Source of the DNA: Branchiostoma lanceolatum
Lineage: Eukaryota; Chordata; Leptocardii; Amphioxiformes; Branchiostomatidae
NCBI RefSeq assembly: GCF_035083965.1
Contig: NC_089724.1
Coordinates: forward strand, 9,294,910 to 9,358,909
DNA: 64,000 nt
Direction: 5' to 3'
The translations under genes were made by a program, and so were the position numbers. This document shows positions 31,001 to 63,907 of the stretch, one piece after another; the stretch's first letter is position 1, and each line of letters starts with the position of its first letter. The notes beneath the pieces were generated by a model. That model did not search any database, was not told where the DNA came from, and saw nothing but the letters and a program-made list of their open reading frames with translations.

Positions 31001-34000
31001 TCGATCTGCTGCAATGATACAAGCATGTTTCACTTCATTTTGAAATTGGCCTTTTGCTCGTAAAACTGCCCCCTTGATTCTAGCTGTGTAGGAATATCAA
31101 TGGTTGGCACATTTCTACTTAAGGTCCTTACTTGAAGGTGCTTTGAAGATCATAACTATGGTCTTTATTGTTATTGTTTTTGTTCATGATAGGACGTGTG
31201 TATGGTCAATGATCATTTCAGGTCCAACACGACCGGACAATTGAGCGGATCTGATGCATGTAGTGCTCTGCTTAATCCTTCGTCGCATTTGAAGGAAGTT
31301 TGAATGGACAGATTCATTTGCATTACATCTATTAAATGAATAGCAAATGTATTTTTGATGCACTAAAAAGGCATTGCTCTGACAGAGTACACCGGTAAAC
31401 TTATCTGAATATATACATATAGGAACAGTACCTTTACTGATGGTACCTATTATGTAATGTTGAATGTACGCGTAGCATTGCCACCTGGGTGCCAGTTGCC
31501 GGACAGAGCAGCGCTTCAACCAGCTTCATTACAGAAAAAAACAGGTTCTTATGGTGTCTCAACTGCTCAATATCCGTCTTCAAAGAGGTTAGTGACATTC
31601 ATGCTTTGCTCATAGCAACAATCATAGAATAGATGAAAGGATTATCAGATTTGTTTTTATCTTAGAGAGGTATCGATACCATCAATGCCATGTCATGACT
31701 ACATTGTTAAGTTAGTTATGATATCTTTATAGCTATATATACGTTGTTGAACTGATGCTGATTTGGTATTCAGCACCACGAAAACCATTCCATTATACAG
31801 TTAGCTAAATTCTTATCTATAACTTAAAAGCTATATGTTAAAAGCTATAGATTTAAATACGTACACCTTTGATTGAAATGTCTCTGAGCTTGAGACATAG
31901 CGATGCTTGCCTTAAGTTCTAAGCACCTTATTGATCTACCTTTAAACTGCGTACAATTACATCATAAAAAACAAATATCAAAAGGAATTATTGATGCCCA
32001 GGTGCAGATGTCTTCTATTCACTTCTTTATAGAAAACATGAATCATTTATAGAATTTCGCTTTCGCCGTTTTGCGATGGCATTTTGGCTGTAAAGTCCTG
32101 AAGTGAACAGCCTGCCCTGGTGACCTTTCACGGGTAACGACTCTTTTCAAGCGAACAAAACGCTCTAAGCGTCACAAAAGGCACTGTCTCCATTGCAGGG
32201 AATATTTGTCGCAGATGTACCTTCACAAAGGGCGTCAATTTCCTTTTCATCTCGATAAGAATGTGTGATTTACCACGCGGTTCACATATCAGTGATCAAG
32301 GGGATTGGGGTTAATAAGAGCAGGACCATAACGGCTAACGTCCTGGAAAATTTATGGCAAAGTGCTGTCTTCAGAGACGCTCTCCTAGAATGGATGTCAT
32401 TATGCTCATCGTTTCTTAAATATAGATTGAACAGTTATTGGTGAAGCATCATCAGTTTTTCATCCCGAGAGTGAACGGAAGAGCCCCACGGGGCCTGCTC
32501 GATCTAATCTATGGTTGATATATCACGCGTATTACAGCCGACTGCAAATGACCAATTACGTTATTCGCAAAGGACCGGAGGGGAATTACCCAACGAGCAT
32601 GTTGTGGGAAATGGGGGCGATTCAAAGCATTTGGAATATTTACGATGATGACCTGCCTATACATCTGCCATGGCCGTGCCTGTCAGCTCTAAGATGTACA
32701 ACGTGTAGCTTTAGTACGTCTTTGATTTCGCTTGCACGTTTTTGTGGTGGTATTATGAAGTCGCATCATGATTGACCTACTTACATACAAGTATTCCCAA
32801 GAAACATACTACGAATAGTAAATATGTACAACTGTAACGGTGGTTAAGACATATCAGCACGTTAAGAAAGCACGAAACTGCATGGTTGTCGTGTGGTGGT
32901 GGTCGGTCAGGTCATGGGTTCGAATGCTCTGACATGCCACCGATGTTGTGGCCAGGTGTAAAAATGGGTACCTGACTTCGGTTGGGGAGGTAAATGTCGG
33001 CGGAAGGAGACTCACTGACTCACACCACTATACTGTACAACTACCAGCCTCAAAGTCATTCTACAGTAACAGCTTTTTTCCACGAACAGCAAAACTATGG
33101 AATTCCCTCCCAACCCACTGCTTTTGACTATAACCCCCGACTATAACCTACAAACCTTCAAAACAAACATACACCGCTATCTCTCACCTTAGCCACATTC
33201 AATTTAAACCAATCACGTCAATTAGTTCAATGCTTAAAGAAGTGTCCCCTTCGGCCCTGCATTGAGTGAGATCGTTAAAGAAAAAAAAGAGGGATGGGCT
33301 CCGCCTTCCAATACCGTGCTTTAGACACAGTGGATAACAACTCGATTCCCCTACGGCCTCAAATGCTGTATGGGACTACCAACCTTATCCTTTTTTTAAG
33401 TAAACTATTATCAAAAAAATATATTGCCCTAATGTGAAGCGCACACAAGATGCCAAGTCCGCACGCGAATACTCGAACAGAAAATAAATGCAGGCTTTCA
33501 CTTAATCCATAATCCTTTATCCCGGGGACCTCTGAGATCAGGCTTAAAGGATTAGGGTTTTTAAAAGGGCTAATGCACCCCTGCTTAAAAGAGAGAGACC
33601 CTATATGTTATATGCAATCAAGGGAAGGCCAACTGTTCCTGCAAGCTTTTGTGCTTGTAGTGGATTGATGGGTTTCAAGCCGCTCCTGGTAGCGAACATG
33701 ATACTGTAATTGAAGACTGAGGTACTGGATTTCCATCACCGGAAAGGACAAGGCAACCGTTACTCACTCATAATCCTTATTAGGTATTGACCTTTAAGTT
33801 CCCTCTCAGAAAGTGCGTGATAGATTATTCTGTCTCAGGCATCAGTTATACGGGGCGGGACTTTCTACGGGCTTAGAGGTAATGGCTCGTGGATTTGGTG
33901 GGAGTACTTATGCTTTGGTACCGGTTGGAAAAGGTGCCCTGCCGGGTAGCTCACGGGCTGTTTTATGTGCACTTTCGGGCGTGACCCGTACGTGGCCCCG

Positions 34001-37000
34001 TGGGACGCCCTCCGGCTACCGGGCTATTTTGGGGCCCGGCCGGGACCCCGAATCATTTTAGCCCGGACTTAAAATCGACGCGGGAGCCGGTAACAAATAG
34101 ATGAAGTGAGCTAACCGTGCGGGTACCCGTCAGTCCACCGGGACAGATTTGTCGGGACTACACCACCGACGGGCACCGGCGCAACTGGGACCATAGTATA
34201 AGTTGGGAGTGGTGCAGAATTAATACACATTCACATATTTTCGATCACACAAAGTACTAATACTCTGTTGTGTGTATTGTATGTGTATGTAAGTCTGTGA
34301 AGGTTTGGCCTTGTCATTCCAAGTATAAACTTGGTCATATATTCTTGAACTATTTTCGTTTTAGATATACATTTCTAACTGTGTAGAAAAACTGTGAATC
34401 TGGTTGCCTCGAGCTGGACGAACGCAAGTCTATTTGATAATAAAATTAAACTAAAAACTGAAAGTAGTTCAGTCACATATAAGCAAGATATTAATACCCT
34501 TAGCTTATTCCTAACGTGTCTCCGGGTAAATTGTCAGTACTAAAATGGCGGAATGTGACTTGATTACAAAAATCTATGTTTTATTTTGTATTTCAATTTT
34601 GTAGTTTTCCTATTTTGCTAACGTACGAAAGACACTGTTATTTCGTTTTGTCAAATATAAAGCTTCGATCTTTCTATAATAGCAGATTATATCCTGTTGA
34701 AATGAATGAAATCATCATCCTATCCTCATGGCAACACAGGTCAACAGTGTACCCTATCAGAACAGCAACAACATGATGCCAAACGGAAATGAAGACAGAT
34801 GTTCTTCCGGATTAAATGGCATCCCGGGGACTCCTGGGATACCTGGCTCGCATGGACAGCCGGGGAGGGACGGCGGTAAGGTAAGTGTGATGTCGTCATT
34901 TCATATCACTTCGCAAGTTCACATGACCTTGAATAGAATTCGAAGCGGCCTTGATTTGAATCAACTCCTTCCCTGTACTTAATACGACAGCAATATTGGT
35001 GTAATGTACCAGGATATAAAGCAAGTGTTGATATAACATCTTCGAATTCATTTATAATTTTTTCCGAGTGCACAGATACAAGCAAAACATAGTAAGAATG
35101 TTTCTTGTGTATCCCAAACTTTGAAAATCACACATGTATCCATCTTACCCAATACTCAACTATACAATCAACTCTAATCGCTTTTTTCTAATGACCTTTT
35201 TCATAAAGTTTGAGTCAGTGCATCGAGTGAGAACAAGTACCAACATTCACTTGAAAGTTCATCTGTGTTCAACTTGGTAGAAGTCATTCTGAGTCAAAGT
35301 TGAACTTCAATTGCCAACACAAAAACTGGACTTTGGGCTGATCAGCTCCAGTCAAGGACTGAGCAATCCACTTTTTTGCAAGTGTAATTAAAGAGGCCAC
35401 CCGGGCTTTATAAACATCCCTCAACAGAGATGGGGGGGGGGGGGGGGGGTAGTTGGCGCCATAGACTTTCTGCAGCATATGATCCACTGCTCAGCGAGTC
35501 ACGTGTTTTGTCTGCATAACGTGACGTCACAAAGACAGTGGATTGCTCATTCCTTGACAAAGACTGGAGCTGATCAGTCGAAAATTTGGATAAGTCCAAT
35601 TTCCGTGCTGGTAATTGCAACACCAACATTGTACCATTATTCTGAAACAAGTTTTAACCGTGATTTCCAACACAAAAATTGGACTTACCCAAATTTTTGA
35701 CTGTACAACACCAGTCTTTGTCAAGGAATGAGCAATCAACCGCTGAGATGACGTCACGTTATGCAGATAGCACACGTGACTCTGTGAGCACTGGATCATC
35801 ATGAGTTGCAGAAAGTCTGTGGCGCCCCCCGTCTCTATTGAGGGATGGTTGCAAGGCCCCGATGTAAATTATGTAATTGTACCATTACATGATACCTCTA
35901 GGGCGAGATTGGGCCGATTGGGCCGAAGGGTGACAGGGGAGACCGCGGCACCCCGGGGAAGTGTTCCTGTACCAAGGCATCCACCATGAACTGGAAGCAG
36001 TGCAGCTGGCCGAACCTCAACAACGGGGCAGACGTGGGAGTCATTCAAGTGAGTTCGATCATCTGGGGCCTTTGTTGTTCTTGGTAAAACCAGTTATGCT
36101 TAGGTCGCGATTGGGAAAAGAGGCCTTGCCAAAAAGTTCACGGGCTGTTGTTTTGTACATGTTGTACTTTCAGGCGTGACCCTACGTGGTGGCCCCGTGG
36201 GGCACCCTGTGGCAACCGGGCTATTTGGGTGCACGGTCGGAGACCTCGAAGTTTTTAACACGGAGTTAAAATCGAGGCGGGACCCGGTAACAAATTGGTG
36301 TCGTGGGCTAATCGTGAAAACACCGACAGACACCCTTCCGGTGTTCGGCTGTTCACCGGGACAAATTTGTGTCTTCAGGGCCCGGTGCAAATGTGACCGT
36401 AGCATTAGCTGTTAATAGTACCTTTCAGTGTTTCTCAGTGAGGAAAATCAACCTGTTTAGTGACAATATTGTACCTTAGTTATTTAACACCTAATACGCA
36501 TCATCCAAACCACGAGTTGATGACTTTTGAAACCTCCATACCAGGATGCTATTCAAAACGAAGCACTTGTTGAGCTAATAAGGATTCTCTGTTTATAAGT
36601 TCTGTCCAAGAGTTAGTAACCTAAACAAGGGTTGCCTGTCTTAATATGATTATTCACTGCCGTTTACTTATAAGACTACGCACAGTCTGCCTATGCATCA
36701 TTGTCCACATAAAACAATAATCATTGATTTTATTAAAGAACAGTCTCCCCTGACTATAATACGGCTATATCGATTACTTGAAAAATAGATTATAAATGCA
36801 TAATCCAAAGTTTATTCAGTTTGTATCTTTTCCCTACCATGACCATTCGCTCTTTATTGACAGGAATTAATGGTTATAGGGATGGTATACATGTACGTAT
36901 CCCAATAAATATATTGATCTAAAATTAATGAATTACATAATACGATGTGGCCTTCGCCATAACAATTTAGTTAATCATCAATGTAAGTCTTGATTTGAGT

Positions 37001-44341: not shown

Positions 44342-47300
44342 ATGAGACGAGCGCGGAACGACACTGTCAGCGCCGGTAACATCACAGACTTCACCGTTGC
44401 GGATGGGTTTGAGACGGCGTTCGCGGTGTCCGTAGGCACGGTCGGCCCTGTGGCGAGTATTCTCGTGATTCTCGGTGAGTCTCAAAGCATGATATATTAT
44501 TAATAATCTCTCACGTATTACTTTATAAAGGATGCTTGCATTTTCTTAAAGCCAACGTGTTACAATTTTTGGTGCCACATTTGTCATACTGCTAAAAAAA
44601 AGGTGATGATTTACGACTGAGTGCAGATCTAGAGGACAACATTGTCTCCTCATTTCAGCTACAGTAAAGACCCGGAACCTCCGCACTCCCTCCAACGCCA
44701 TAGTGGCCACACAGTGTACCACCGACCTGCTGGCCGCCATCTGCATCGGTCCTGCCCAGACTGTAGGCATCATTACTGGAGGATGGCCGCTAGACCCAGC
44801 AGCATGCACGGCCATTGGTAAATATTCTAAATTCAATTATGTTCTAGAAGGAGATAACTCTTACTGTGTACAAATAGGTAGATATATCAAATATTGTTAA
44901 GAGCTTAGAACTAGTAGTATACGTGATACGTCAGACTCAACATTTTTCATTCATATACTTATACTAGGTTAGTTTATTTGTATCCACAATTGTTCGTTCG
45001 TATGTATAGTAGTATAAAACCTTAATTATGAAGTGGCTGTACTTTTTTAATTTTGTTGTGTCATGAAGATTGTTGTATAGTCACTGCAGATTTGAATACG
45101 GCTGATGGTAGTTACTGTGTCGTGTAAGTTGTAAGTCTTGAATTAGATTATTTATTACCTCCTTGAAAACGGAGGTATTGCTCTCGGCCTTTTTTTTGTC
45201 TTGGTGTGTGTCGGTACGTAGTTATTTGAATATTGAAGAGTGAGAAGATTTGAGGCGGAAGATGGTGTAACCAGAGCCTCTCAGGATGGAAAAGGGGTCT
45301 TGGCCGGACCCCGATTTGCATAGGCAGGAAAACGCATAGGCGAATCAACGGCAAATTCACCATAATTATTAGAACAAGAAATCTACTCACGGAGGCAAGA
45401 TATAGTCAATTTCTTGTTCACTATATGGAACTAAAGAAGTTGGTAGATATCACTATATCTTAGGGATGCTGAATCACTACCCAACATATGTTAAGATATT
45501 CATGTTACCATTACAGAGGCTTCGTTATTCATCTTAAATGCATTTTTCACATACTAACAAGTCTTCTTTTCCGTCTTAGGTCTGGTCCAGCTGGTTTGTG
45601 TCGTGATGTCTAATATAACTCTGACCCACATTGCCATCAACCGGTGCGTCATCATCACCAAGAACATCAACACGTACGACACCATCTTCAACTGGAAGAC
45701 TACAACACTCTTTCTGGTGGCTTCCGCGATTGCCAGCTTCATCTTGGTGTTGTCTTTCTACGCTGGAGGGGTGGAAGTAGGGTACAACCCCATCACCAGG
45801 CGTTGCATTATCATACAGGTAAGCATATCACAGGTTCTCATATTGGTGTGTCACGACTGCCCTCATGTAACTGGTCAATTGGTTAAGAAGTGATTGGTAT
45901 GTTTCTAATAGCAGCAATGCCAGCTGTCTTGTTTTCTGAATAAATATACTCTTTTTACACAACCAAGTGATTTATTCAACCAACGTTTCGGTGACCATCT
46001 GTCACCTTCCTCAGGGCAAGTTAATAAATCACTTGGTTGTATAAGAGACAGTCTTTTTATTCAGTGACTTACCAACCTGATGAAACTATTCACATATGCT
46101 TTTTTTCATCTTGTTTTCCATCAATCTTTTCTTCAGTGATCTGAAAATACTACAAGTAATTTTCAATCTCTGTATTGTGGTCACCAAGTCGTATTTGATG
46201 TGTGCTCTACTGGAAATATAAACAGTATCAATGTACGAAAAGTCCATTGAATATTTAAGCCCTCCCTTGCCTTTTCAATTCAAGATCATCGTTGAGCCGG
46301 AAATTTGATTTAAGTGTCAAGCCGATTAGCCTGAACATATCTATTGTGCTGATCCTACTTAGGACCTGGATTCAGCGGTGTACATCGCCTTTGCCCGGAC
46401 ATGGAGCGCGCTCAGCGTCACCATGGTCATCATCAGCGTGTTGGCTTACATCAAGATCATTGTGCGCGTGCGCCGAAGTGGGGAGCAGGTGCAGGGATAC
46501 GTGAGAAACGTTCATTTTCTCAGACACTTGGAACATAAGACCAACGATATAGCATGTTTCATAATTGTGTTTCGTGATTGATACTTGCTTATGATTAGAT
46601 ATGAGCCACTATTACCTGATACATGAACACCATATCAAGTAGACATGCATTAGACTTTTTAGAATCTATTTGATTTGAACTCTATCTGGTTATCGCGTCT
46701 GGAATCATAATTTTAGTTTACGTGACATTCCCGACCGGGTCCCGAAGCCAAAGATTTGTCCCGATGGACTGCCGGGTAAGGAGATACCTCCAGGTGTTTG
46801 CACGATTTGCTCATGGCGTCTATTTATTACCAGCCCCGCGTTGATTTTAAGTCTGGGCTGAAATGATTCGGGGTCCCGGCCGGGCCCCAAAATAGTCCGA
46901 TAGCCGCAGGGTGTCCCACGGGGCCACGCCCGAAAGTGCAAAAAAAAGCCACTACCTGGCGGGGCCCCTTTTCCAATTGAGACCTAAGCATTACTGCTTT
47001 TTATTTAGGCGTCGAATGTCCGTAAGCGCACCGAACTCCGCCTGACTCGGAATTGTGGACTGCTGTTCCTGGTCTTCTTCGTCTTCTGGCTCTGGTCGTC
47101 CATCACGTTTGGCATCATCGTTCCTGAGGTAAGATATAAGCAAAACAACTTCCAAACGTCCTGATTAAGCATATTATACCATCGCACTTTTGAGTTTTAT
47201 GAAATAGCACATCCAAATTCAGGCTTCGTGTAGACGCCTTCTTCATAGAAATTGTCTTGTGTCTTGTGTAGAATTATGGTACAAATACGTCGTGTAGGTG

Positions 47301-48765
47301 TTGTCACAGTGACAGTAGTGCCGTTGTCTTGTATGAGAAGTCTTTCTTCATACAAGTAGTTGTAATGTATTCTCCAAGCAGAGGTTTCGATCGGAGGGCC
47401 GCAATTTTCAACGCCCTCCCTCCACCTCTGCCGCAGAAACCATCAGTGTGGGTCTATCCTTTCAGCATCGGAGTCGCTGAAATAGAATAAAAAAACATTG
47501 CGGTCACTATAGCCCCCCGATCGGAACCTCTACTTGGAGAGTACGTTGATGAAGGTTAGACATCCAGGTAGTAAGATACCCCAAAAATAGTTACTCAAGC
47601 AACTGGATTAAATTTCGAAACAGTCAGACGTTTCAGACAGCATCCGCTATCTTGTAGTGTCACTGACGAAAGATAGCGGATGCTGTCTGAAACGTCTGAC
47701 TGTTTCGAAATTTAATCCAGTTGCTTGAGTAACTATTTTTGGCGTACTAGGAGAGTAATTGTACCTCACGTGCCTTGACAAGTTTGCGTTGTTGTACCAC
47801 TGTAGAGCAAGGTCCTCCCCGTCCACCTGATACGACTGGCCTCCGACCTGGTCTCGGCCGACACCATCGTCAACCCGCTGGTGTACGGCATCATTAACAT
47901 CAACTACCGAACAGCCATCTCCAACCTGTGCCGCTGCCGCAGCAACGCCGTGCACGTGGGGAACTCCTCAAACGCGACGATACCCGGGAAGATAAAGGTA
48001 CTTCGTTTGAATATTCATGCTCACTTTGTGTTAACACACCCTCCTCTAGCAGTGCTGAACCCTGCTCGGCAAATGCGCGGCAAACCCTCTTGCCGAGCGG
48101 GATTCAGCACTGCTGGAGGAAGGTGTGTTACCATATCCATCTCGCAAACTGTGATCATTTTTGGCGAAGCTTCAGGAGCGAGCCTAATAGTGTGATGACA
48201 CGACTGAGGTTAAAATTCTTGCCTGGAATTAGGTCCAATGCGTCCCCGCCTGACGGGATCACTGGCCAGACCAGATTTATGACTCATAATTTCCAGATTG
48301 CCTAACCAACTGACTGTTTTGTAATTTTGCAAACGGTCCATTGCATATTCCTTATCTGGCAGCCACCAAAGAGTCAACATTAGGCAAATGTAAAACGCAC
48401 AGAGTACAATGTAATGTAAAGAGCTCAAAGTCATAATACTGGCCTTCTCTTCGTGAAACTTGATCATCAAACTCATTGTGCGCTAACCATATGTTCCCAA
48501 ATCTACGATAGGAATTTAATGATTATAATCGGCATCAAAGGCATTTTAACCAGATTAGAATCACGAATGTGTCAAATGAAGTCTGCATCCTGTCCAACAG
48601 GTCACGGTGTCTTCAGCTGCACAGTCTGCTGGTGGTCCAATGAGCGGTACCGTATCTCCAGGATTATTTCACCAGCCAGCTTCACCAATGAGCGGTGCCG
48701 TACCTCAGGGGCAGCTTAATAACCGGCTATGGGTGGTGCCACAGGTACAAGATACCAGCTGCTGA
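44342..48765 (+). CDS. Orphan class A (rhodopsin-like) GPCR
   Basis: Seven coding exons, phases matching: 44342-44474, 44659-44817, 45580-45818, 46363-46500, 47009-47128, 47806-47997, 48601-48765; 381 residues. The N-tail has two N-glycosylation sequons (NDT, NIT). TM1 about 26-46; TM2 carries TTDLLAA (D67, position 2.50); W87 and C94 mark the first outer loop, with C173 as its disulphide partner. TM3 ends in INRCVI, so NRC replaces DRY. TM6 is FLVFFVFWLW; TM7 ends NPLVYG (NPxxY intact). TM1 lacks the usual Asn at 1.50. The tail holds a repeated SPMSG(T/A)V-like peptide. NRC and the loop around YNPITRRC faintly recall melatonin-type receptors, but I cannot assign a ligand. An untranslated exon probably lies near 42185. 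Confidence 0.9.
45155..45405. repeat. Family F-type repeat
   Basis: Starts TTACCTCCTTGAAAACGGAG with an adjacent palindrome and GTCTTGGTGTGTGTCGG. It ends near TCACGGAGGCAAGATA, an inverted echo of the start. Lies in a GPCR intron. Confidence 0.55.
45936..46093. mobile_element. Family E MITE, intact copy
   Basis: The left part (CTGAATAAATA, then ACACAACCAAGTGATTTATT) mirrors the right part (AATAAATCACTTGGTTGTAT, then TTTTTATTCAGTGAC). The centre is the block AACGTTTCGGTGACCATCTG. The older copy at 1164-2680 has the same ends. Confidence 0.85.
46717..46984 (-). mobile_element. Family B MITE, copy 4
   Basis: The right end TTCCAATTGAGACC corresponds to the usual left end in reverse complement. 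The left end begins near TGACATTCCCGACCGGGTCC and lacks the last few bases of its inverted repeat, so it is slightly truncated. Lies in a GPCR intron. Confidence 0.83.
47368..47543. mobile_element. Family C MITE, copy 4
   Basis: Ends TATTCTCCAAGCAGAGG and CCTCTACTTGGAGAGTA. The arms extend through TTTCGATCGG / CCGATCGGAA. The interior is unlike copies 1 and 2. Lies in a GPCR intron. Confidence 0.85.
47584..47744. repeat. Long perfect hairpin, about 70-bp arms
   Basis: CAAAAATAGTTACTCAAGCA through GACAGCATCCGCTATCTT is repeated as an almost exact reverse complement, around a spacer of about 15 bp (GTAGTGTCACTGACG). Such complete symmetry suggests a recent fold-back insertion. Lies in the intron before the TM7 exon of the GPCR. 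Confidence 0.9.
48035..48128. repeat. Hairpin with about 36-bp arms
   Basis: CACACCCTCCTCTAGCAGTG, then CTGAACCCTGCTCGGCAA, is mirrored with a few mismatches by TTGCCGAGCGGGATTCAG, then CACTGCTGGAGGAAGGTGTG. GC-rich spacer of 17 bp. Lies in the last GPCR intron. Confidence 0.85.
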
Positions 48766-51100: not shown

Positions 51101-54100
51101 ATGGTTCGCAGCCGTATTTCGGTAGCCTTTCTACTCTGTGTGGCAGGGCAACTACCATACGCCTATGCACGTAAGTACTCGATCAAACAAACATTCTGTA
51201 TATATGCAGCCGGTGTATAGAATATTGACGTTAACATGGCAGTATAGTGTTTTACATGAAATATATCACTATATGTCGAAGACATTGAAGATTTGACTAT
51301 TTTAACCAGTGTCCTAAACTCTCCAAGCAGAGGTTGAGGGAGAAGATTGTGACTTTCTTATCTTATTTATGTATACTTTTATATCTCTCTCCCCCAAGAG
51401 AGCCGACAGAAAACGGGGCATATGATAAGAAGGTCGCAGTCTTCTCCCCTCAACCTCTGCTTGGAGAGTATCTTAATTAATAAAACTTCATGAAAAATTG
51501 AACCAGCAAATGCATAAGAATACACGCCGAAAGGATGATCTTATATGCTGGATGATATGCACCGAAATCGCACGTAAAATGTTAATGATAGATAATATAG
51601 CAGACTTAGAGGACATGCTGACAAAAAGTTGTAACACTTAGTTTCAATAATCTCTGTACTGTAAACAAAGACCTGACTTATCTATCTGTCTATATGCATT
51701 GTACCTCTAGTCCTGTTGTTGTAGATCTGTGTAGCAATATATGTCTTATTATCTGAGTAAGGTAAATATGCATAAATAAATAGATACACAACTCACAGAC
51801 AGTAATCGAACTGGTTTGGTTCTGAGTTCATATGTTCCTAAGTTCCAAAAAATTGTTACAACTTAGAGTATACAATGGGTTGTCATTTCATTTCTACATT
51901 TTGTACAAGTCCTAGAACTTCTTCATAATAATGAACACATCTCGATATTTTAATTAAGCATTTGTGCTTTTTTTTAATCTCATGATCTCATTCGTATCTG
52001 AAAAAGAAAACTAATATTGTTTCCTTTCTGGAATTGTCAGAATGCGCCACACCGCCCCCACCTGTAGATGGCGGTTACCCACTGTGCACTTCCCAGGCGC
52101 CGTTCCCGTATAATTTTTACTGTTACTATGAATGTAACCCGGGATACAGTCTATCGGCGCAAACCTTCACAATTTGCTGGACTGGTGGCTTATGGGTGCA
52201 TCAAAGCCTTATTGTCTGTACACGTAAGTATACACAACAAAACACAAAACGATGTTTGAAGAAAGGGCATTATAACATTTGATTAATTACTGCCATGTGC
52301 ACTTTTTTAACAGTAAGGATGACCTATACAAGTCAGTGAACAAAAGATGAAATGTCATAGATGTAACCACATAAGACGACATGTACAAAGCTTAATTTGA
52401 AAGCTATGTCATAGATGGATGTTAAAAAACATATACTTCAAGATATGCAAGTCTGAATATATCACACGCCAAATTTATCAAAAACAGACGTCAAATTGCG
52501 CATTGCCTTAAACTTAATGGAAGGCAGATTAGATTTTATAGTTTATATATGAAGGTACAGACAGATACTAGTTTATCCTAATTTGTCCACGCTGCATGTT
52601 CAATCTCCCCCTGATGCGCCCATTCTACTAGGGCGGTGACCTCGCTGTGCTCTCACTGCGACCTAAATTTGACCAGAGCGCTCAACGAATTTCGAAGAAC
52701 GAATCTTTTTACGCTTTGTGTGTTTTCCATTTTCATTGTGTTTCAGTCATACTTTTACATTTTGCATTCTATTCCAATTATGACATCTATCTTGATGGTT
52801 ACACAAATCCAGATTAAGTCGCACCGAGGTCGCAATGAGAGCGCTGTCTAGTGGAATGGGGGCCTGAAAGCTAATGTAAATTGCCTTTCGTTTACAGTGC
52901 TAGATTGTCAGGCTCCACCTTCCATACCTCTCACGTCAAGTATCACCAGTTCCCCGTACGCGGTGGGAACCCAGACCGTGTACGAGTGTGTAGCAGGCTA
53001 TGAAGTGGTCAGTGGTGACCTTGTCAAGACCTGTGAGATTGGACCTTACTGGTCAGGTGAAGACCCAGTCTGTCAAGGTATCTAAAGGTCATCATTATAT
53101 ATTATGATATCTAGAAATACTTTGATGACTTTTTTAGATGTCCAACATACGTGATCACGAGTGCTTGGCGTAAATGACATTTCTTGAATGCCATCTCTAA
53201 CCTAAACCTCACTAAGATTCTGTAATGAAAAATTGAATTCACATGTTGGCCAGTGTATGTACAATGTATAATACTATGCACGAGAGAAACCGTGTCATAA
53301 CAATGCGAAACGTACTACTCAATTATATCATGTATTGAGTAATGAGGTCAGATTAGCACACTAGTATTCAGTTTGTAGTTATCAATAATCCATGTTATTA
53401 ACCATACATTTCACCTGATGCAATTGTTGTTCAATAAACTTTACTTTGAATTGACGTGACTTTTTTCCAAGGCTGTCCTGAACCACCGGTCGTTGCTAAC
53501 GCCAGTTGGTCCGGATGTCAAGCCCCCTATGAACTGGCCACCCTGTGCACCTACACCTGTGACGACGGGTTCATCATCGACGGAGGGGACGAGGTGAAAA
53601 CCTGCTCCGCCGGCCTCATCTGGGCAGGAATGGACTTGATCTGCTGTAAGATTCTTACTTGTCGACATTTCATGTCGGTTTATTTTTTTTACAGTTTCTT
53701 TGTGTTGCATCCCTCTATAGAAATTGCACAAGGAAGGTTTCTCGTGATGATTAGGGTATCTTTTTAACGTTCATTGTGATGTATCCCTCAATAAACTGCA
53801 CAATAAAGTTTTTTCTTGATGATTAGGATGAAGTCATCTGTGACGATAGCTGACACTATCTAGTATGTGTTTTAACAGTCTTTGGCCAAACATAAAGGCA
53901 GGCGTGTCAAACACCAGCAATAGATCTAGATTACTGATTTACAGCAGCTTCATGTTTGCCTGGCTAGGTGTTAGCTACATTAAATATAGCACAACATTTT
54001 GGTACACCCTCAGGTGTACAAGTTGAGTATCTACTTTTATTATCTAGATCTACTGATCAAAATTTGACTCTATAAGGGAGTTTTGCGGAAAATCACCGTT

Positions 54101-56098
54101 AAAAATACAATAACATTCGCTTTTATAATGTCAAACAGTGATTGACGGCAGCTGGGGCGACTGGTCCAGTTTCTCGGCCTGCAGTAGCGGCTGTGGGTTC
54201 GGGCTGCAGAGCAGGACCCGGACCTGTACCAACCCGGCTCCGGCCGGCGGTGGGGCGGATTGTGCCGGGGCAGCAGGGTCCGCGATACTGTGTTTTCAGA
54301 CTCACCAGTGTTCAAGCCAAGGCGGGCCACTCGGTAGGACCTCTTTAAAATGTGCTTATGGTGATGGATATCTTAGCTTATGACCTGCAAAACTACTCGA
54401 ACAAATGTCTTGTGACCTAACTGTTTCTCTTTTAATTCCTACACAGATCCGTCAGATGGTGTAACTAGTGACGTAAGTACTGTATACCAAAATATTTTCA
54501 TCCTTATCACTGCACAGGAAGAGGAGGGGAAAACAAGTCATTTCTATCATTTTCCGCTCTCTTTTCCTTAAAGAAATGCCAGGTACAGTATAAAGTATGT
54601 TGCATCGCTTTCATAATATTGTTTGGTAAAGCCATAGACTGCTTGTCAACCAAAATAACATAAATCCCATCAGCTGTTCACCGCAATATCAATCGATGAT
54701 ACTGTCTATCGAATAGGTATACAAGGACCGTGCCCCAAAAATGTTACACTTACTAACATATTAAGTTATTTCAACCAATTAATAATCATTCCAGCTGGGA
54801 GGCCTGAATCTTGCTGAGAGTAACGCTAGTCTTGTGGATGTCTTGAAGTGGAGGGCGGGGCAGCCTTTACCCGACTCTTATGAAAACGACGAGAGGCCAA
54901 TACCCGAAGGTAGTAAAACTAATACCTTGTACGTGTACGGTGTGGGGCCAATCAATCATTCCCGGACATCAACTGCTGATGCAAACTGTAGACATCTTTC
55001 CAGGGTGTTGATAGGCGTGTTTGGGTAAAAGAAGAAAAATCAATCGTACTGTTTTGAGACCCCGTGTTTATTTTTTATAACCTTGTGGTTATTGTATGTC
55101 TGTGATTCGAAAAAAAGCCTCACGTGTGCAAGTGCGCACAGGACTTTGTTCACAATTCTGGCATACTTTATTTCGGAATACTTTTTCTAGATCTTTGTCC
55201 ATTTACATTTTCAGTTCCAATGTCGCTGTATTAAACCAAAGCAATGTGAGATTTGCCATGTGTCGCCTAGCTTGGGTATATGTACGATACCTTGTACGAG
55301 TGTGGTGTGTTGGTCAGTCAATCATCTGAGGGCATCAACTGTTGATGCATGGCGTGCCATTTGGGTACAGGTAAAGTAATCAATCGTACTGTTTTGAGAT
55401 ACCATGGTGTTTATTTTCTATTTTCTAACCTTGTTGTTATTGAATGTCCCAGCTCGGTGGTTTGAAACAGCCTCACGCGTGCACGTCCTTCGTCTCAACT
55501 CTATCTCCGAGGACCACGCCGTAAGATTTTACATACCAAATTACTACATATTTTGTGGTATCAAAAACAGCACACCATTCTGCTAATTTCATTGAAAGGA
55601 GTTTAACAAGAAACCCCATTCTGTATGGTTCTAATGATACGGTTATAGGCACGTATCTCCATATGATAGATCACTTATTAGATGATCATATTAAGGATAT
55701 GGACAATGTCGTCATATCAAACTTGCTAGACTGGAAGACTCGGCCAAATAAAGGTCAAGTGTCGTTGAAACCTAAACGTGTTTCACTATTCTCTGTCCAC
55801 AGAATCTGTCCATGACAGTTCAGTATGAGTTGGCGTGGTTTGACCCACGTCTTGTCCAGCTCACCACCACGTGGATGCCCGTCCCCCCGGGCATCCTGTG
55901 GTCCCCACCCCTCCAGTACGGACGGACCGTCCGTGGGGCCACTACAGTGGGGGAGGAAGGGACGACCATGTGGCTGAACAGCAACGGGATGATTGTGTAC
56001 AAGATAACGTAAGTAGTTGCAGCAATCATCGGGCTTATTGGTTATTTGTTTAGGGAACAGACCTAGACTCCATAAAATCGTAGGCATTGTTTTTTTTT

Positions 56099-56132
<34 letters not shown>

Positions 56133-59100
56133 TGTGTGTGTGTGAATGTGTGTGTGCATGTGTGTGTGTTTGTGTTTCCGGATTTTTGTAGTCAGCATAA
56201 CTCAAGAACCTCTGGATAGAGTATGATGATATTTGGTATGTGGCTAGGTGTTGGAAAGACAAAGGTCACTTTTGATTTTGAGCCCCCTGCTATGTGATCT
56301 TGGTGCTGCAGTAGAACTTCCGTTTTTGTATATTTTGACCTGGACGTGCTATTGTATTTTTATGATTTGTTTTAACTATGATTTAGAGCGTGAGGTTCAA
56401 GCGTGAAATCAAAATAGTTTCAAGGCCAGCTGTTTAAATAAGGTAAAGAAACTGACACTCAGTGATAATGGTAATCAAAGCGACAAAATTCAATGCACTA
56501 GTAATTTTGTCCTGACATCTCAATATGTTTTCCAGACGGAAGTTCAAGTTGACATGTGGCTTAGAACTTGCGAGATTCCCGTTTGACACACAAGTCTGCA
56601 GTACTCAGTTACACGCCTGTAAGTATCATTTGTAATATGATTGATGGATACAATAAGTTTTCATTGATGTGTTCATGAATAAACCGTTAAGATGGTGGTC
56701 CTGGTTGAGTTTATTTGGGCCTACCATTACTTCGTCAATTATATCAGTACAGTTGTGCTCTGATATGTCTCGATGCTTGTTTATATCTTAACAACGTAGC
56801 AAAGACATCTTCATAGGCTGATCTGTGATTTTTTTACTCTAGTGCCATGTAGGCTAAAGGTGATATAAGATATAGTCTTACCTAGAATGATCCAATTTTC
56901 CCATGTCACAATCAATGTGCCTGATGTATTCCTAAGTTAGAGATTATTTATACCTAATTAGAAAGTAGTGCGGATGCTTCTATCTTCTACCTTCTATCTT
57001 GAGTATGTAAGAAGTACATAAAAGTATTAAGGACAATATGTATCATCTTTGATTATCTCCTAGACAACGGAGTCCGGCTCCGGTTCTTTCCGTCCAGCAT
57101 CACGGAGAGAACTCCCGTGAGAACGGACATCCTTGGTGTGGTGTCTCAGTACAGGCTAACGGGCGTAGAGCTGCATGCAGGATACAACTCTCTACTAACC
57201 AACACTTCAGGTAATTTGCTGTTAATGCTTCGGTACCAATTGGAAACAATTCAAGGGCTGTTCTTTGGGCACTTTCGGGCGTGACCATTACGTGGCCCCG
57301 TCGGACACCCTGCGGTTGCCGGGCTATTTTTTTGGCCCGGTCGGGATTCCGTATCAATTTAACTCAGACTTAAATTGACCGCGGGAATCGGTAACAAACA
57401 GACGCCGTGAGCTAATCGTGCGTCCACCGGGACAAATTTGTGGCTTCGGGGCCCGACCGGGACTACACCCCTGACGGGCACCGGCGCAATTGTGACCGGT
57501 TTCATTTCTTATCTTTAGATGATGACATGAAATATATATATATGGTTTGTGGAACTTCGACTGAAGGACCAATGCATATATTTCTTACCTACATTCATGT
57601 TTTCATCAGACTTGATAGCCATTGCCATTGTTTCCCAGGAACACTGTTTGGATAAAGACTCTGTAGCTGATATCAGTCCAAATTTTCTCGTTTATCCTCC
57701 AGGCTGTGATTACTTCGCGGAAAAGTGCGACTATAACAGCGTTGATGAGTGCGAGTTTGTGCTGTTCCATGACTGTGATGATGCACAGTGTCACCGTTGT
57801 AAACAGCTGATAGGAGAATGTCGGTACGACTTTGGAGACTGCTCAGACTACCCGCTAGGTAAGGCCTTTGGGCTAGCAGACGTTGCATGATCAAATCATT
57901 TGCACATGACACAAATTATATGATCTAAAAATCAACCAGAATATTGCTAGGGTTTCTAAATATATATCTTGTTGTTGTTGTTGCTATTTCACTCCTATAC
58001 ATATACCTTCTGTGTCTCTTGGATACAAACGTTGAGTTTTACTGATCTCCAAGCAGATCTGATGGCGGCGAAGAATTTTTTTTCTAATTTGGGGTACCTT
58101 CAATGATAGCCATACTGGTAAACAACACTACAATTGAGTTCCTACCTTCACCAATGAAACTCTGTCACAGTAATATGCTCAACTATTGTTTCCAAAACTT
58201 TAATATGCGCTCATGATAAATGCAAATATTTCACCACTGATGATGCATGCGATTCACAGGGTCAAGCACTTATAGCACTGTTGGGATAAAGCTACACTTG
58301 AGACGTCGGTTGTGGCGTTACACCTTCACTCTGTTCTTCCCGTCAGTCGTGGTCGTCTTGTCGTCTTTATTTCAAACATGGCTGCCACTAACGACATCCG
58401 TCATATCCGCGCGGGTGGTTCTGGGAAGTACGTCACTGCTCGTCATGGTGAAACAGAGCATTGGTGTCCACCGCGTTCTGTGGGTCAGTGAACTTTGAAT
58501 TAAAAAAAAAAAAAGATGAAAGAGCTTTTAAAACAGATGCCAACCTTTAATATTTTAGATACGGAGTATAAACTTTGGATATACCATGACAAACAGTTTT
58601 GCAGTGAGGTTTTTGAGTGAGTGAGTGAGTGAGTGAGTGAGTGAGTGAGTGAGTGAGTGAGTGAGTGAGTGAGTGAGTGAGTGAGTGAGTGAGTGATGAA
58701 ATCATACGTGTAACTACTTATCAATTCCACCAGGGTGCATAATTCCCTCACCCTGAAAAGATACGTCCAAACAGATCTCCAACCCAATATCCCCCCAGTA
58801 TAATGCACTCCTGTATATCCAAACTATGCATACCTGGGAGGGTACCGGTGCTGGACTAGAGATCTCTCAAGCCCCTTTTTTTTAATTCAAAGTGTCGAAT
58901 TTATGTAACCCGGTGGACTATATAAACTTTACCTGAAACGATTCATTCGTTGACATCCACGGTGCGACATGGTTACTTGTGATTGCATATTACGTAAATT
59001 GTAGATTGACAAAATAAAGCCATCAGCCAATATAAGACATGTTGTGTCCCTATATATTCTTTAGGCCACTGAAGCCCAAGCCAGAGACATTTGGCTCTTT

Positions 59101-60099
59101 GGGTGCCTTGCACTAGTGATTGTAGCATTGCTGGAGACAGCTATCGCACACAACATATACTGTTGGGAGGAACGTCAGGTACGTTTATTTCTGTTATGTT
59201 TATGGTTTGGAATTTTGACAGTCTTGAAATATTTACATTCAATGTCTACGCGTTCAGATTCTGATCCACAACAATCTTTGCATTTTATTTTTCAGAAAAA
59301 GAAAAGAGTGGAGGAGAAAAAGGTGTTTGCTAAAGTTCGCATTCCCCGGCCTAAGATGCACAACCCGTACCTGGTCGTTAACAGTCCGTCGTTGGAGGCG
59401 GAGTCTGGCACTGAGGAATTTTTGTGGAGTCCACGTCAGGCCGAGAAGCCTCGGCGCCAACGGACCAGCAAACCGAAGAGCAGAAAGCGCAAGAAAAGTC
59501 AGAGAAGGTATAAGTCAAGCAAGGCCGACGTCGAACAGTCAACAATACAAAATGACGTTACGGAAAAGAAAGAGGAAGAAGGATTGCCTGATCCTGTCCA
59601 CTTCCACAGGCCAAGGAGGTACAGTCAAAACGTCATCATAACCTTCCTTGGGGCTGAGGTGGAATCCGGCAAGGAAGAATTGTTGTGGGTCCCTCGCGAG
59701 AATGAAGAGTCGAAAAAGCGACAGGGCAAGAGACTTGCTCACAAGAAAGGGAAGAAAATTGCGCGTAAGTTGTCCAAACATGGTGCAAATACCGCTTCAA
59801 GGGACCGCATCACATCGCGTAAGAACGCTATGGCCAACAACGCTGAAACGGCAGCAGGACCAGCCAATTCCGTTCCAACAGTTCCCAAGACCTCCGCAGA
59901 TCCAGCCAGTAAGGCGCATGCGCTACCAGTGTTTATTCCCCGCAAGGAGCCAAAGTTCAAACAACCGGAGCCGACAGCAGAGCCAGTAGAGAAGCCTAAA
60001 GACATTACCCATAGAATAGACGAGATTGCTAGACTGTTGCTGCCTTTGTCATTTATGATATTCAACATCGTATACTGGGTGCATTACATGCGTTACTGA
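51101..60099 (+). CDS. Sushi-TSP1-Cys-loop receptor channel (domain fusion)
   Basis: Fifteen phase-matched exons: 51101-51170, 52041-52223, 52898-53077, 53472-53645, 54139-54333, 54447-54472, 54795-54909, 55453-55520, 55803-56008, 56536-56618, 57064-57210, 57703-57858, 58260-58483, 59065-59178, 59296-60099; 914 residues. Residues 1-23 signal peptide; three sushi domains, 25-84 (6 Cys), 86-144 (4 Cys), 146-202 (6 Cys); TSP1 206-260 (W208/W211, six Cys, RTRTC). The pentameric channel ectodomain starts near 315: WFDPRL (349-354), Cys-loop C413-C427 with FPFDTQVC. Residues 484-534 are an eight-Cys module at the loop C position. TM1 about 555-577; TM2 with ISARVVLGSTSLLVM, close to the SAARVALG pore of anion-conducting GABA/glycine receptors; TM3 about 617-640; basic loop 645-885; TM4 891-911 (FMIFNIVYWVHY). 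Ligand unknown; anion selectivity is inference. AATAAA at 60308. Confidence 0.94.
51317..51471. mobile_element. Family C MITE, copy 5
   Basis: Ends ACTCTCCAAGCAGAGGTTGA and CAACCTCTGCTTGGAGAGTA. The interior (GGGAGAAGATTGTGACTTTC; TTATC; GAAGGTCGCAGTCTTCTCCC) is closely related to copy 1 at 21203. Lies in intron 1 of the channel gene. Confidence 0.87.
54925..55450. repeat. Direct duplication within a channel-gene intron
   Basis: 54925-55095 and about 55288-55448 share, in the same order, ACCTTGTACG, CAATCATTC/CAATCATCT, CATCAACTG.TGATGCA, AATCAATCGTACTGTTTTGA, GTGTTTATTTT and TAACCTTGT.GTTATTG. The two copies lie about 360 bp apart, just before exon 8. Confidence 0.75.
56094..56178. repeat. 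TG-rich microsatellite
   Basis: A stretch of (TG)n with TTTG interruptions after a T-run. It lies in intron 9 of the channel gene and leads into a family F fragment (56180-56330). Confidence 0.9.
57232..57497 (+). mobile_element. Family B MITE, copy 5
   Basis: Starts GGTACCAATTGGAAAC and ends GCGCAATTGTGACC. Shares GGGCTGTT, GCACTTTCGGGCGTGACC, TTAACTCAGACTTAAA and GGGCACCGGCGCAA with the other copies. Lies in the intron just before the eight-Cys exon. Confidence 0.87.
58612..58697. repeat. (GAGT)n microsatellite
   Basis: About 21 uninterrupted copies of the tetramer GAGT in the intron between the TM2 and TM3 exons. The open frame seen across it is a by-product of the repeat. Confidence 0.97.
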
Positions 60100-60489
60100 T
60101 TGTACTTCATCGACACATGACAGAGCATAGTTGCTAATCAGCTATTAGTGGATGCGTTTTCTTTTTCGGATTTAAGGCATTGTGGTGGCAACAAAATGTG
60201 TCTACGTAGCTACGTAGGTTACAAGTTTTGCTTTCTGTCTTGACTTCTTGATGAACTCCGTAAACATTTCATTGCCCTCCAGGATTGAGCCACACTACAT
60301 TGTAAAAAATAAAACTACCATGCCAACTTAAATTACAACTCGGTGACTCCTCATTGAATTACTCTGTTGTATAAAAGTATTCGACAGCTTGAATGTATGA
60401 AAGATCCCTAAAAAGGAGAACCTCGGTGTTGATTATACCAGGGAAGACTGTCAAGAGCCCGTTACTACACTCGCACGCTAGCTTTACTT

Positions 60490-60566
60490 CCTCCTTTGCA
60501 GGCTTTCTGGCCGGTGCTTTATAAAATAAACGCCGGCGCCGATCGCGAGAAAGCCTGCAAAGGAGG
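60490..60566. repeat. Small hairpin, 19-bp perfect arms
   Basis: CCTCCTTTGCAGGCTTTCT (60490-60508) is exactly mirrored by AGAAAGCCTGCAAAGGAGG (60548-60566). The GC-rich spacer itself contains GCCGGTG / CGCCGGC. Either a tiny fold-back transposon or a structured element just past the channel gene. Confidence 0.8.
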
Positions 60567-60999: not shown

Positions 61000-61735
61000 A
61001 GTCCGCCATATTTTGTTTTGGTCGCGCCACGCTGTTTTTGTTCCACTACAGTCTTCGTATAGCTATCTGCTTGGAGAAAGTCGGAAAAGTGGTTTTAACT
61101 GAAGAATGTTTCATCATGTAAAATGTTCCAAATTATGTATAATCTGTTCAATTTCGGAGTAGGGTTGTGTGTGTTCTCAGCCGAGTAGTGCCCTAATTAG
61201 TTTGGAGCGATGTGTATGTTTTCTTTTCTTCCCTAACAGCTCAGTTACCGCTATGTAACATTACTTCTATATATGATTACGCACTGAATTCAAGTATATA
61301 TCTTCTCCGAGCATGTATAATCTCTCACTTTGTTGTTCCTAATAACATCTAATAGCGTACATGTTACATGGTGTGTGACATATGTGTTGGGGAGGGGGGC
61401 GGTATTGATAAATATTCCTGGCACTGCTGTCTTTTACCTTTCAATACACAACAATAGCAACTGACTGTAAATGTTTACAGCTTGAAATAGAATTATAAAA
61501 TTCAGTGCAAGAAGTAAAAGAGTTGTATTGCTATCCTCCCAAGTTCTCTGTAAATGTGTAATGCAGAGACTCATTGTCTAAATGTTAAAACTTTAGGCTG
61601 CAATTGTAACATATATATAGATTATGGGATCCAGTAGTGATATTTCTTACCTCTCATAATCACGATCTTCCCCACAAACCTCTGCTTGGAGAGTAGTATT
61701 TCTTCACCATTGTTTACTGTAATCTACCCCCAGGC
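61000..61735. other. Probable leader intron of the zinc-finger gene
   Basis: AT-rich. Isolated ends of family C elements (GCTTGGAGA) lie near 61070 and 61690, but no complete copy is present. Confidence 0.45.
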
Positions 61736-61750
61736 TACCTGACAGTGAAG

Positions 61751-63907
61751 ATGGCGCCTGTAGCAGGAATATGTGGCTTGTCTGAGGAGGTAACTCTCGC
61801 CGTGCTGCCTCGCCTCTTCTACGAAGAACTGCAGACCGAACTGAACAGGAGAGGAATGAACATGGACAGTTCCACTTTGGATAAGAGGGACCTAGTGTCT
61901 CTGCTGCAGGATTTGATGGTGGAAGAGTACTTCACCCTACAAACATTGGTGGACCCACCCTCCCTACAGAACAGTGGTACATCCCCTAGGGGGGTAGAAG
62001 TGAGCAAGGATGGATTTGGTTTTCCTGGTACAGAAATTGAGCCTAAGAACATTGCCAGTGTAGTTCAAATCAAACAGGAAGTTGAAGATTCATTTCCTAT
62101 GTATGCTACCTGCATTGGATCAGAGAGAGCTGACATCGGCACCCTTCTCACAGCAACAGAAACTTTAGAACAGTTTGAAGACACTTCTGAGGTTGGACTA
62201 CACGCTACTGATGAGATAAATGTGAAAACCGAAAAGAGTGATGACGAAATTTACGATCACTTTGGTTGCACAGACCTTGCATTCAAGATTTTACCGCAGG
62301 AGAATGCCTATCAGGATATCGTCGATGAGAATCACAAGAAAGGTTTACGACGCTGTCCACATTGTGCCTACACCACCGTTCATGCAACAACAATGAAACG
62401 CCACATGTTCACTCACACGGGCGAGAAGCCATTTGCTTGCTCCTTGTGTAGCTACACGACTTCAAGGAAATACAGTCTGGACCATCATATGAACAACCAC
62501 GCAGATTGGGAAAAAGACTCTTTGCAAAAGGATGCCAACACTATTGGTGCTCCTGCATCAGGCAAAAAGATGGAAGCCAGGAAAAATGCAAAACAGAAGT
62601 GTTATTTTTGCCCCTTTACATCAGGTACAAAAAAGTCCATGACAAGACATCTTGCTGAGAAACATGCCAGGCAGCACAGCCTACAGGAAAGAAATCATCA
62701 ACATGACACTGCTGCCAACAATTGCAACAGCTCTGTAAGCAATAACAGGGCCTTTTTGGAGACTGTAGACTCTTTTGACAACCAGACAGGTTTAGAATAC
62801 GGAGCAACATCCCCTGTTGCATCTAATGAAATGCCACAAACCTCAGAATGTAACAGTGTTCACAACAGTACTACCGGTAGCGGTGCAAAACAGGAGGTAC
62901 TTTCCTGCCCTTTATGTAAGTACACTTCCAGGTTAGTTAAACAGATGGAACAGCACGTCCGCTCTCACACCGCCAAAGGGCCCTTCAAGTGCCCGGAGTG
63001 CTCATTCCTGGCCGTGGAAAGGTCTGAGCTGTTTCTACACATAGAGACACACATTAAGAATGGAAGGTTCTCATGCCAAGTCTGCGGCTACCGTGCAGCC
63101 ACCTGTGGGGGGTTGACAAGGCACAGAATGAGCCAACACTTGGGAAAGGGGGACAACTGTAGCAGCCTTGATGAAGGGATTCAATCAGGGATGTCAACAG
63201 GCAGCGAGAAAACAACGTTGGAGTGCCGGAAGTGCTCCTACTGTACCACGAATAGGTCCCGCTTTGAGGAGCATGTCAAGATGCAGCACAAGAGTCCAGG
63301 CAGGTTTACATGTCAGGTCTGTGGCTTCTGGGCAGTGAACAGAGCTGGCTTACAGAAACACATGAAGCTCCACAAAGGGAAAGGTAGCGGTACTGCAGGT
63401 TCACAGGAGGTAGTTGTGCCTGATGGTTCACCTTTACAAGTTGAACTGGTGAGCTATAGATATGATGACCAGATGTCTTCTGATAAGAGAGGTAGGGACA
63501 CTGAGAGTAAAGATATGACTGTGCCAAATCATAAAGTAACAGTTCCTAGTGAAAAACCTTTCGCAGACATTGCTGCAAGTAAACAGGCTGTGTCTATAGA
63601 GACAGAGGAAAAGACAGAAGAAAATGTAGCAACAGTTCAGCAGAAGGGGGGGAAGCCCTATGTGTGTGGAGAATGTGGGTACAGGGTGGCTACTAGAAGC
63701 ACCCTTTTCACTCACATGAAAAAGCATCAAGGGAGAAAGGTATATAACTGCCAAATCTGTGGGTTGCAACCTAGCAGCCACAAAGACTTTATTCTTCATA
63801 TGAGAACTCACACGGGCGAAAAACCCTTCAAATGTCCACAGTGTACCCTTTCCTTCGCTCGCAAACAGAATCTGAAGAGGCACTTGCAAGTCCATGAAAG
63901 ACAGTGA
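61751..63907 (+). CDS. C2H2 zinc-finger protein with 11 fingers
   Basis: A single 718-residue coding exon. The ATG at 61751 sits inside AAGATGGCGCC, about 15 bases after a CCCCCAG acceptor; a GTG six bases earlier is not needed. The first 65 residues (GLSEEVTLAVLPRLFYEELQ, then a helix) look like a helical N-terminal module but match neither KRAB nor SCAN as far as I can see. Fingers: a tandem pair at about 200-250 with TGEKPF linker, one near 282, three near 384-465, two near 490-555, and three near 637-715. Many are the C-x2-C-x12-H-x3/4-H type with aromatic CxYC-like variants (CPHCAYTT, CSLCSYTT). The TGEKPF linkers, tandem fingers and acidic linker regions suggest a DNA-binding nuclear regulator. 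The family (REST-like or other poly-zinc finger) is not resolved. Confidence 0.93.
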   Translation: MAPVAGICGLSEEVTLAVLPRLFYEELQTELNRRGMNMDSSTLDKRDLVSLLQDLMVEEYFTLQTLVDPPSLQNSGTSPRGVEVSKDGFGFPGTEIEPKNIASVVQIKQEVEDSFPMYATCIGSERADIGTLLTATETLEQFEDTSEVGLHATDEINVKTEKSDDEIYDHFGCTDLAFKILPQENAYQDIVDENHKKGLRRCPHCAYTTVHATTMKRHMFTHTGEKPFACSLCSYTTSRKYSLDHHMNNHADWEKDSLQKDANTIGAPASGKKMEARKNAKQKCYFCPFTSGTKKSMTRHLAEKHARQHSLQERNHQHDTAANNCNSSVSNNRAFLETVDSFDNQTGLEYGATSPVASNEMPQTSECNSVHNSTTGSGAKQEVLSCPLCKYTSRLVKQMEQHVRSHTAKGPFKCPECSFLAVERSELFLHIETHIKNGRFSCQVCGYRAATCGGLTRHRMSQHLGKGDNCSSLDEGIQSGMSTGSEKTTLECRKCSYCTTNRSRFEEHVKMQHKSPGRFTCQVCGFWAVNRAGLQKHMKLHKGKGSGTAGSQEVVVPDGSPLQVELVSYRYDDQMSSDKRGRDTESKDMTVPNHKVTVPSEKPFADIAASKQAVSIETEEKTEENVATVQQKGGKPYVCGECGYRVATRSTLFTHMKKHQGRKVYNCQICGLQPSSHKDFILHMRTHTGEKPFKCPQCTLSFARKQNLKRHLQVHERQ

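Follow-up and report, generated by a model that had tools for sequence, protein, structure and literature searches.

A predicted anion-type Cys-loop receptor subunit with an N-terminal arm of three sushi domains and a thrombospondin repeat and a cysteine-rich cassette in loop C

This work describes a gene in a 64,000-nucleotide stretch of DNA (contig NC_089724.1, positions 9,294,910 to 9,358,909; the whole stretch is referred to here as the window). The gene occupies positions 51101-60099 of the + strand, with 15 exons placed from the sequence and joined in frame, and its predicted product links a signal peptide, three sushi (CCP) domains, one thrombospondin repeat (TSP1), and a Cys-loop receptor channel subunit in a single chain. 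Judged by domain profiles and reading frame, this architecture is real, well formed, and unusual. On our best reading, the subunit is anion-type and not a glycine receptor, and its extracellular modules form a putative built-in anchoring arm. A sequence-only reading of the same region had proposed the fused architecture, which held up; it had overlooked an anion-type pore, the loss of a binding-site arginine, a duplication in the loop between membrane segments M3 and M4, and a cysteine-rich cassette, encoded by exon 12, within loop C of the ligand-binding domain (LBD). This cassette is the strangest part of the gene.

The spliced product comprises 914 residues (2742 coding bases, or 2745 with the stop codon), and the joined frame contains 0 stops and 0 frameshifts. 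All donors are GT (14/14) and all acceptors AG (14/14), and the G+C content is 0.46 to 0.66 in exons versus 0.31 to 0.47 in introns, ranges that overlap slightly. The sequence-only reading had the exon coordinates, including the 54333-54447-54795 junctions, and the phasing of the 15 exons right: the frame is open over all 914 aa, with GT and AG at all 14 introns. Exon 1 (51101-51170) encodes the signal peptide MVRSRISVAFLLCVAGQLPYAYA, with a best 9-residue hydrophobicity of 2.98 and a phase 1 donor. The next four exons are all phase 1-1; exon 2 (52041-52223, 6 Cys), exon 3 (52898-53077), and exon 4 (53472-53645, 6 Cys) each encode one sushi domain, and exon 5 (54139-54333) encodes the TSP1 repeat with its WGDW and RTRTC motifs. 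Exon 6 (54447-54472, phase 1-0), a 26-nt micro-exon supplying the linker PSDGVTSD, is the weakest link of the model. The LBD starts in exon 7 (54795-54909), where an N-terminal helix can be recognized by eye and where GABA-A alpha alignments begin (at about residue 300), and it continues through exon 8 (55453-55520), exon 9 (55803-56008), exon 10 (56536-56618), and exon 11 (57064-57210). Its last strand is encoded, together with M1 and M2, by exon 13 (58260-58483), and exon 12 (57703-57858) forms a block between the Cys-loop and that strand. Exon 14 (59065-59178) encodes M3, and exon 15 (59296-60099) encodes an ∼240-aa M3-M4 loop, a predicted M4, and the stop codon. The first candidate polyadenylation signal past the stop codon is an AATAAA on the + strand at 60308-60313.

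Pfam profiles recovered each component from the whole protein above its cut-off: Sushi in three stretches (60.9 bits), TSP_1 (29.5 bits), Neur_chan_LBD at residues 301-434 (56.1 bits; cut-off 26), and Neur_chan_memb in two stretches (57 bits; cut-off 28.1). Each sushi module also passes singly, with exons 2, 3, and 4 scoring 24.5, 39.0, and 31.2 bits (cut-off, 20.7), and the four canonical cysteines of these modules are retained, as seen by eye. The piece encoded by exons 5 and 6 matches TSP_1 at 35.5 bits. In the Protein Data Bank (PDB), the sushi part comes closest to complement receptors and factor H, and the TSP1 repeat best matches thrombospondin-1, with UNC5B also ahead of properdin. Of the four membrane segments claimed earlier, the fourth is the least secure: exon 15 alone reaches the end of the profile (positions 121-233 of 233) at 21.4 bits, under the cut-off, and the C-terminal sequence resembles M4 by eye. 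The NCBIfam ligand-gated channel model TIGR00860 scores 97.2 bits, under its own cut-off of 280.2. Within the LBD, exon 10 provides the Cys-loop, with two cysteines 13 residues apart (C-x13-C) and FPFD between them (residues 413-427, CGLELARFPFDTQVC). Exon 9 keeps the loop D Trp (W349) and the loop A W-X-P (W370-S-P372), both of which are Cys-loop receptor motifs (PMC4006026). By the features tested, the protein belongs to the Cys-loop superfamily and is predicted to form a ligand-gated pentamer. No significant paralog was found elsewhere in the 64-kb window, with matches outside the gene having E values of 0.36 or worse.

The residues around the pore point to an anion channel. P-A-R before M2 is usual in anion channels, and the aligned glycine receptor rows also show the Pro; here, Ser584 stands in its place. 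The M1-M2 linker has two additional residues, and M2 itself, with Leu at 9', carries unusual residues at 2' (Val) and 13' (K599), the latter a position that faces the pore in known structures. Ahead of M2, S584-A585-R586 with no Glu at -1' conforms to the anion pattern, since A-R/K before M2 without Glu at -1' is described as an anion-channel motif (PMC549065). In the ligand-binding site, Glu346 aligns with the agonist-binding Arg of loop D. That Arg grips the agonist carboxyl in glycine, gamma-aminobutyric acid (GABA), and glutamate receptors; it is missing from four named amine- or acetylcholine-gated anion channels, and GABA-A beta subunits, which contribute the principal face only, are also without it (PMC4006026). 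Because Glu346 replaces this Arg, glycine, GABA, and glutamate are unlikely to act as agonists in their standard pose if this subunit supplies the complementary face. Glycine receptors have a second disulfide in loop C; here, the positions aligned with the loop-C cysteines of alpha-2 are Asn475 and Thr541, and only exon 12 provides Cys in the loop-C region. Loop B carries Tyr434, in keeping with the PheB or TyrB of inhibitory receptors. Judged by eye, the M3-M4 loop is strongly basic; it contains an internal duplication (within 59296-60096) with a local score of 97, a score reached by 0 of 500 shuffles (shuffle maximum, 62).

Exon 12 is 156 nt long and encodes a cassette with 8 Cys in 51 residues. 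It follows exon 11, which runs from loop B through the first half of loop C and ends in TNTSG, and it lies between two residues with aligned counterparts in loop C of glycine receptors, T481 (Thr there) and Y539 (Phe there). When the full query is aligned with glycine receptor alpha-2, the alignment is split in two around exon 12. With exon 12 removed, the best PDB match becomes one stretch and gains in score (83.8 versus 76.9 bits), the Pfam LBD match covers profile positions 8-215 of 216 instead of 8-147, and the pairwise score increases from 182 to 228. Among seven equal-length deletion variants in a profile scan (7 of 9, with starts 450 and 500 omitted), the query without exon 12 scored best, at 65.7 bits versus 57.7 to 62.3 bits for the others. 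The splice sites of exon 12, scored like all others here with approximate weight tables, reach 9.7 and 9.8, the top summed score among the internal exons, and on both strands of the whole window exon 12 is the sole open phase-1 candidate of 90 to 300 nt with splice sites that strong. Both of its borders are phase 1 and match the end of exon 11 and the start of exon 13; the frame therefore reads through with or without it, and skipping this exon would be frame-neutral. Two observations count against a simple insertion at this point. The 12 best 52-residue deletions in the pairwise scan start at 443-458 or 486-489 and score 228 to 232, which leaves the insertion point unfixed, so that its exact placement depends on the profile together with the borders of the exon. 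Moreover, exon 11, which is core LBD, is likewise phase 1-1, and symmetry alone is therefore no proof of insertion.

Searches with exon 12 alone retrieved no match at E values up to 10 from Pfam, where HMMER filters discard most weak matches, or from the PDB. AlphaFold2, given exon 12 alone without an alignment, returned a mean pLDDT (predicted local distance difference test) of 58.1 and a pTM (predicted template modeling score) of 0.30, too poor for a fold search. The spacing of the cysteines resembles that of ShKT and Notch-repeat motifs, a likeness that no search supported. No loop-C insert of comparable kind is shown in the excerpted text of PMC4006026, and the entry for PMC7551183 shows none either. 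Just before exon 12, intron 11 holds one copy (57251-57422) of an interspersed repeat that also occurs in the window at 33951-34121, 36094-36316, 46800-46928, and 6135-6395, with ∼74 to 88% pairwise identity.

Comparison with known systems places the channel part closest to glycine receptor alpha subunits, the nearest solved channels. Of the residues aligned with alpha-2, 71/245 are identical; without exon 12, a single alignment starts inside the LBD and extends as far as M3 (query 47-308 of 363), and A-R before M2 is shared. The predicted subunit differs in having the sushi-TSP1 arm, the cassette in loop C, Glu in place of the loop D Arg, Asn475 and Thr541 at the loop-C Cys positions, Ser for Pro before A-R, and Lys at 13'. 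GABA-B R1a, a G-protein-coupled receptor whose membrane part is unrelated to that of a Cys-loop channel, resembles the predicted subunit in bearing sushi domains of its own at the N terminus of a neurotransmitter receptor. It has two of these, in contrast to the arrangement here, and the excerpts of PMC9083331 name no TSP1 in it; its sushi domains steer trafficking and placement, and the first one binds APP, AJAP-1, and PIANP (PMC9083331). According to the same source, LEV-9 (sushi), LEV-10 (CUB), and MADD-4 (TSP1) of Caenorhabditis elegans are separate organizers of receptor clusters, which agrees with what the sequence-only reading had said of LEV-9 and LEV-10, and together with Drosophila Hig and Hasp they illustrate sushi, CUB, and TSP1 modules that cluster transmitter-gated receptors (PMC9083331). 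These proteins act in trans, whereas here the modules lie within the channel chain.

Some prokaryotic pentameric channels also have extra domains between the signal peptide and the LBD, but these are small-molecule sensor domains (PBP-I, Cache, or MCP-N) found in bacteria and one archaeon (PMC549065). That 2004 paper assigns "stereotypic domain architectures" to the known animal members and describes extra N-terminal domains in bacterial and archaeal forms, in line with the earlier statement that known animal Cys-loop subunits are without such additions; its excerpted text contains 0 occurrences of sushi or TSP1 and describes no loop-C insertion. Pentameric channels joined to other domains have so far been noted at the genome level only (PMC4795631). 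Among the papers listed from the PMC open-access library, we found no Cys-loop channel fused to sushi or TSP1 modules (closed journals and databases may differ), and in open-access Cys-loop papers that mention sushi, the word belongs to a cited GABA-B title or to food. The predicted protein may well be present already in some public annotation. If the window is from a lancelet, the fusion becomes more credible and less surprising, because immune proteins of amphioxus are described as having undergone domain rearrangement (PMC2575513).

The explanation that we favor, holding it at roughly even confidence, is a single gene for an anion-type Cys-loop subunit with an anchoring arm and an altered loop C, its extracellular modules having been acquired through exon shuffling. 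Phase 1-1 exons, three for sushi and one for TSP1, would have been placed between the signal-peptide exon and the LBD, and a further phase 1-1 exon, exon 12, would have been placed into loop C. Exons 2 to 5 and 12 are phase 1-1 units with one module or cassette each, and single-module phase 1-1 exons behind a phase 1 signal-peptide exon are the classical setting for exon shuffling. The sushi-TSP1 arm would bind a matrix or surface partner and hold the receptor in place, doing in cis what the sushi, CUB, and TSP1 proteins of C. elegans do in trans. By this analogy, fastening the receptor outside the cell is the most likely role of the arm, and a receptor-borne sushi arm is plausible for placement because the sushi domains of GABA-B R1a steer placement (PMC9083331). 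The cassette, in turn, would alter the lid of the agonist site and thereby gating, and the subunit might therefore be a non-binding partner or belong to a receptor with a non-standard ligand. We consider a bolder combination rather unlikely as a whole, in which the cassette is a disulfide-rich folded module switched by exon skipping, the arm engages a matrix or protein ligand, and contact with a protein, instead of a small transmitter, gates or silences the channel.

A single gene joining the sushi-TSP1 part to the channel is favored, but unproved, over two adjacent genes, a secreted sushi-TSP1 protein (exons 1 to 5 or so) and a channel starting from exon 7, that the model has merged. The merger is improbable in our estimate, and the gap that it has to use is just 461 bp long. 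Within this gap (54334-54794), none of the polyadenylation signals AATAAA, ATTAAA, and AGTAAA occurs, although the variant TATAAA is present at 54589. The open frame of exon 7 has no upstream Met. Scanning 53646-54794 for a separate first exon of the channel part yielded one weak candidate (53672-53755), which would join exon 7 in frame but has a weak donor (3.5) and a hydrophobicity of 1.8, versus 2.98 for exon 1. Several observations nevertheless cast doubt on the passage from exon 5 through exon 6 to exon 7, the least certain in the model. The join hangs on the 26-nt exon 6, whose acceptor and donor score 6.4 and 7.0; in 216 background chunks of 461 bases (both strands of window positions 1-50000, real exons left in), signals of that grade on both sides occurred in 5, or in 20 when judged by summed score. 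The gap contains a second candidate exon (54518-54594), and a poor acceptor at 54802 (score, -1.2) would splice exon 5 directly to exon 7 in frame. In addition, exons 5, 7, and 8 have weak acceptors, with scores of 0.3, 3.0, and 3.0, respectively. Exon 6 itself has no phase-1 replacement above a donor threshold of 3, which again argues for one gene.

Two further explanations accept the gene but differ on what it does. The arm may be a sensor rather than an anchor, with the channel responding to microbial or complement ligands or to other proteins, perhaps extrasynaptically. Complement regulators and properdin contain modules of this type, the sushi part has its nearest PDB matches in complement receptors and factor H, and properdin is among the TSP1 matches; the replacement of the loop D Arg by Glu346 and the interrupted loop C would also suit this reading. 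Because complement proteins are abundant in the PDB, this resemblance is biased; the TSP1 repeat is closer to thrombospondin-1 and UNC5B than to properdin, and nothing links the arm to gating. We regard a sensor as fairly unlikely. Far less probable still is a decaying or rarely used gene, or an exon 12 that is included only in a non-functional form. An abnormal binding site and loop C, the residues at 2' and 13' of M2, and the two extra residues before M2 would fit such decay, but the 2742 coding bases run over 15 exons without a stop or frameshift, the Cys-loop cysteines, W-x-P, and canonical sushi cysteines are all retained, and exon 12 leads the internal exons in summed splice-site score.

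Other features of the window include inverted repeats in intron 1 (51318-51469; 23-nt arms, 100%) and downstream of the gene (60490-60566; 22-nt arms, 95% complementary), which may be MITE-like (miniature inverted-repeat transposable elements), and 20.8 perfect tandem copies of TGAG in intron 13 (58614-58696). Adjoining the channel gene, a long open frame with C2H2 zinc fingers occupies 61697-63904. Upstream, 45558-45890 encodes a piece of a seven-transmembrane receptor (7TM_GPCR_Srx, 24.2 bits; cut-off 23.8), and 47806-48192 resembles the end of the same receptor gene by eye only, with no Pfam support. Farther away are a Histidine N-acetyltransferase C-terminal domain (20216-20812, 55.8 bits) and, on the - strand, a CARD domain (3846-4904, 52.3 bits). 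In viral contigs, two stretches fit a peptide pattern, and neither of them codes for a relative.

The layout of the predicted subunit departs from the single stereotyped architecture described for animal Cys-loop receptors (PMC549065). If the favored explanation is true, one molecule would do the job that separate extracellular proteins perform at worm and fly synapses. The large cysteine-rich insert in loop C would amount to a natural experiment on the agonist lid, and its symmetric exon would permit the receptor to be compared with and without it.

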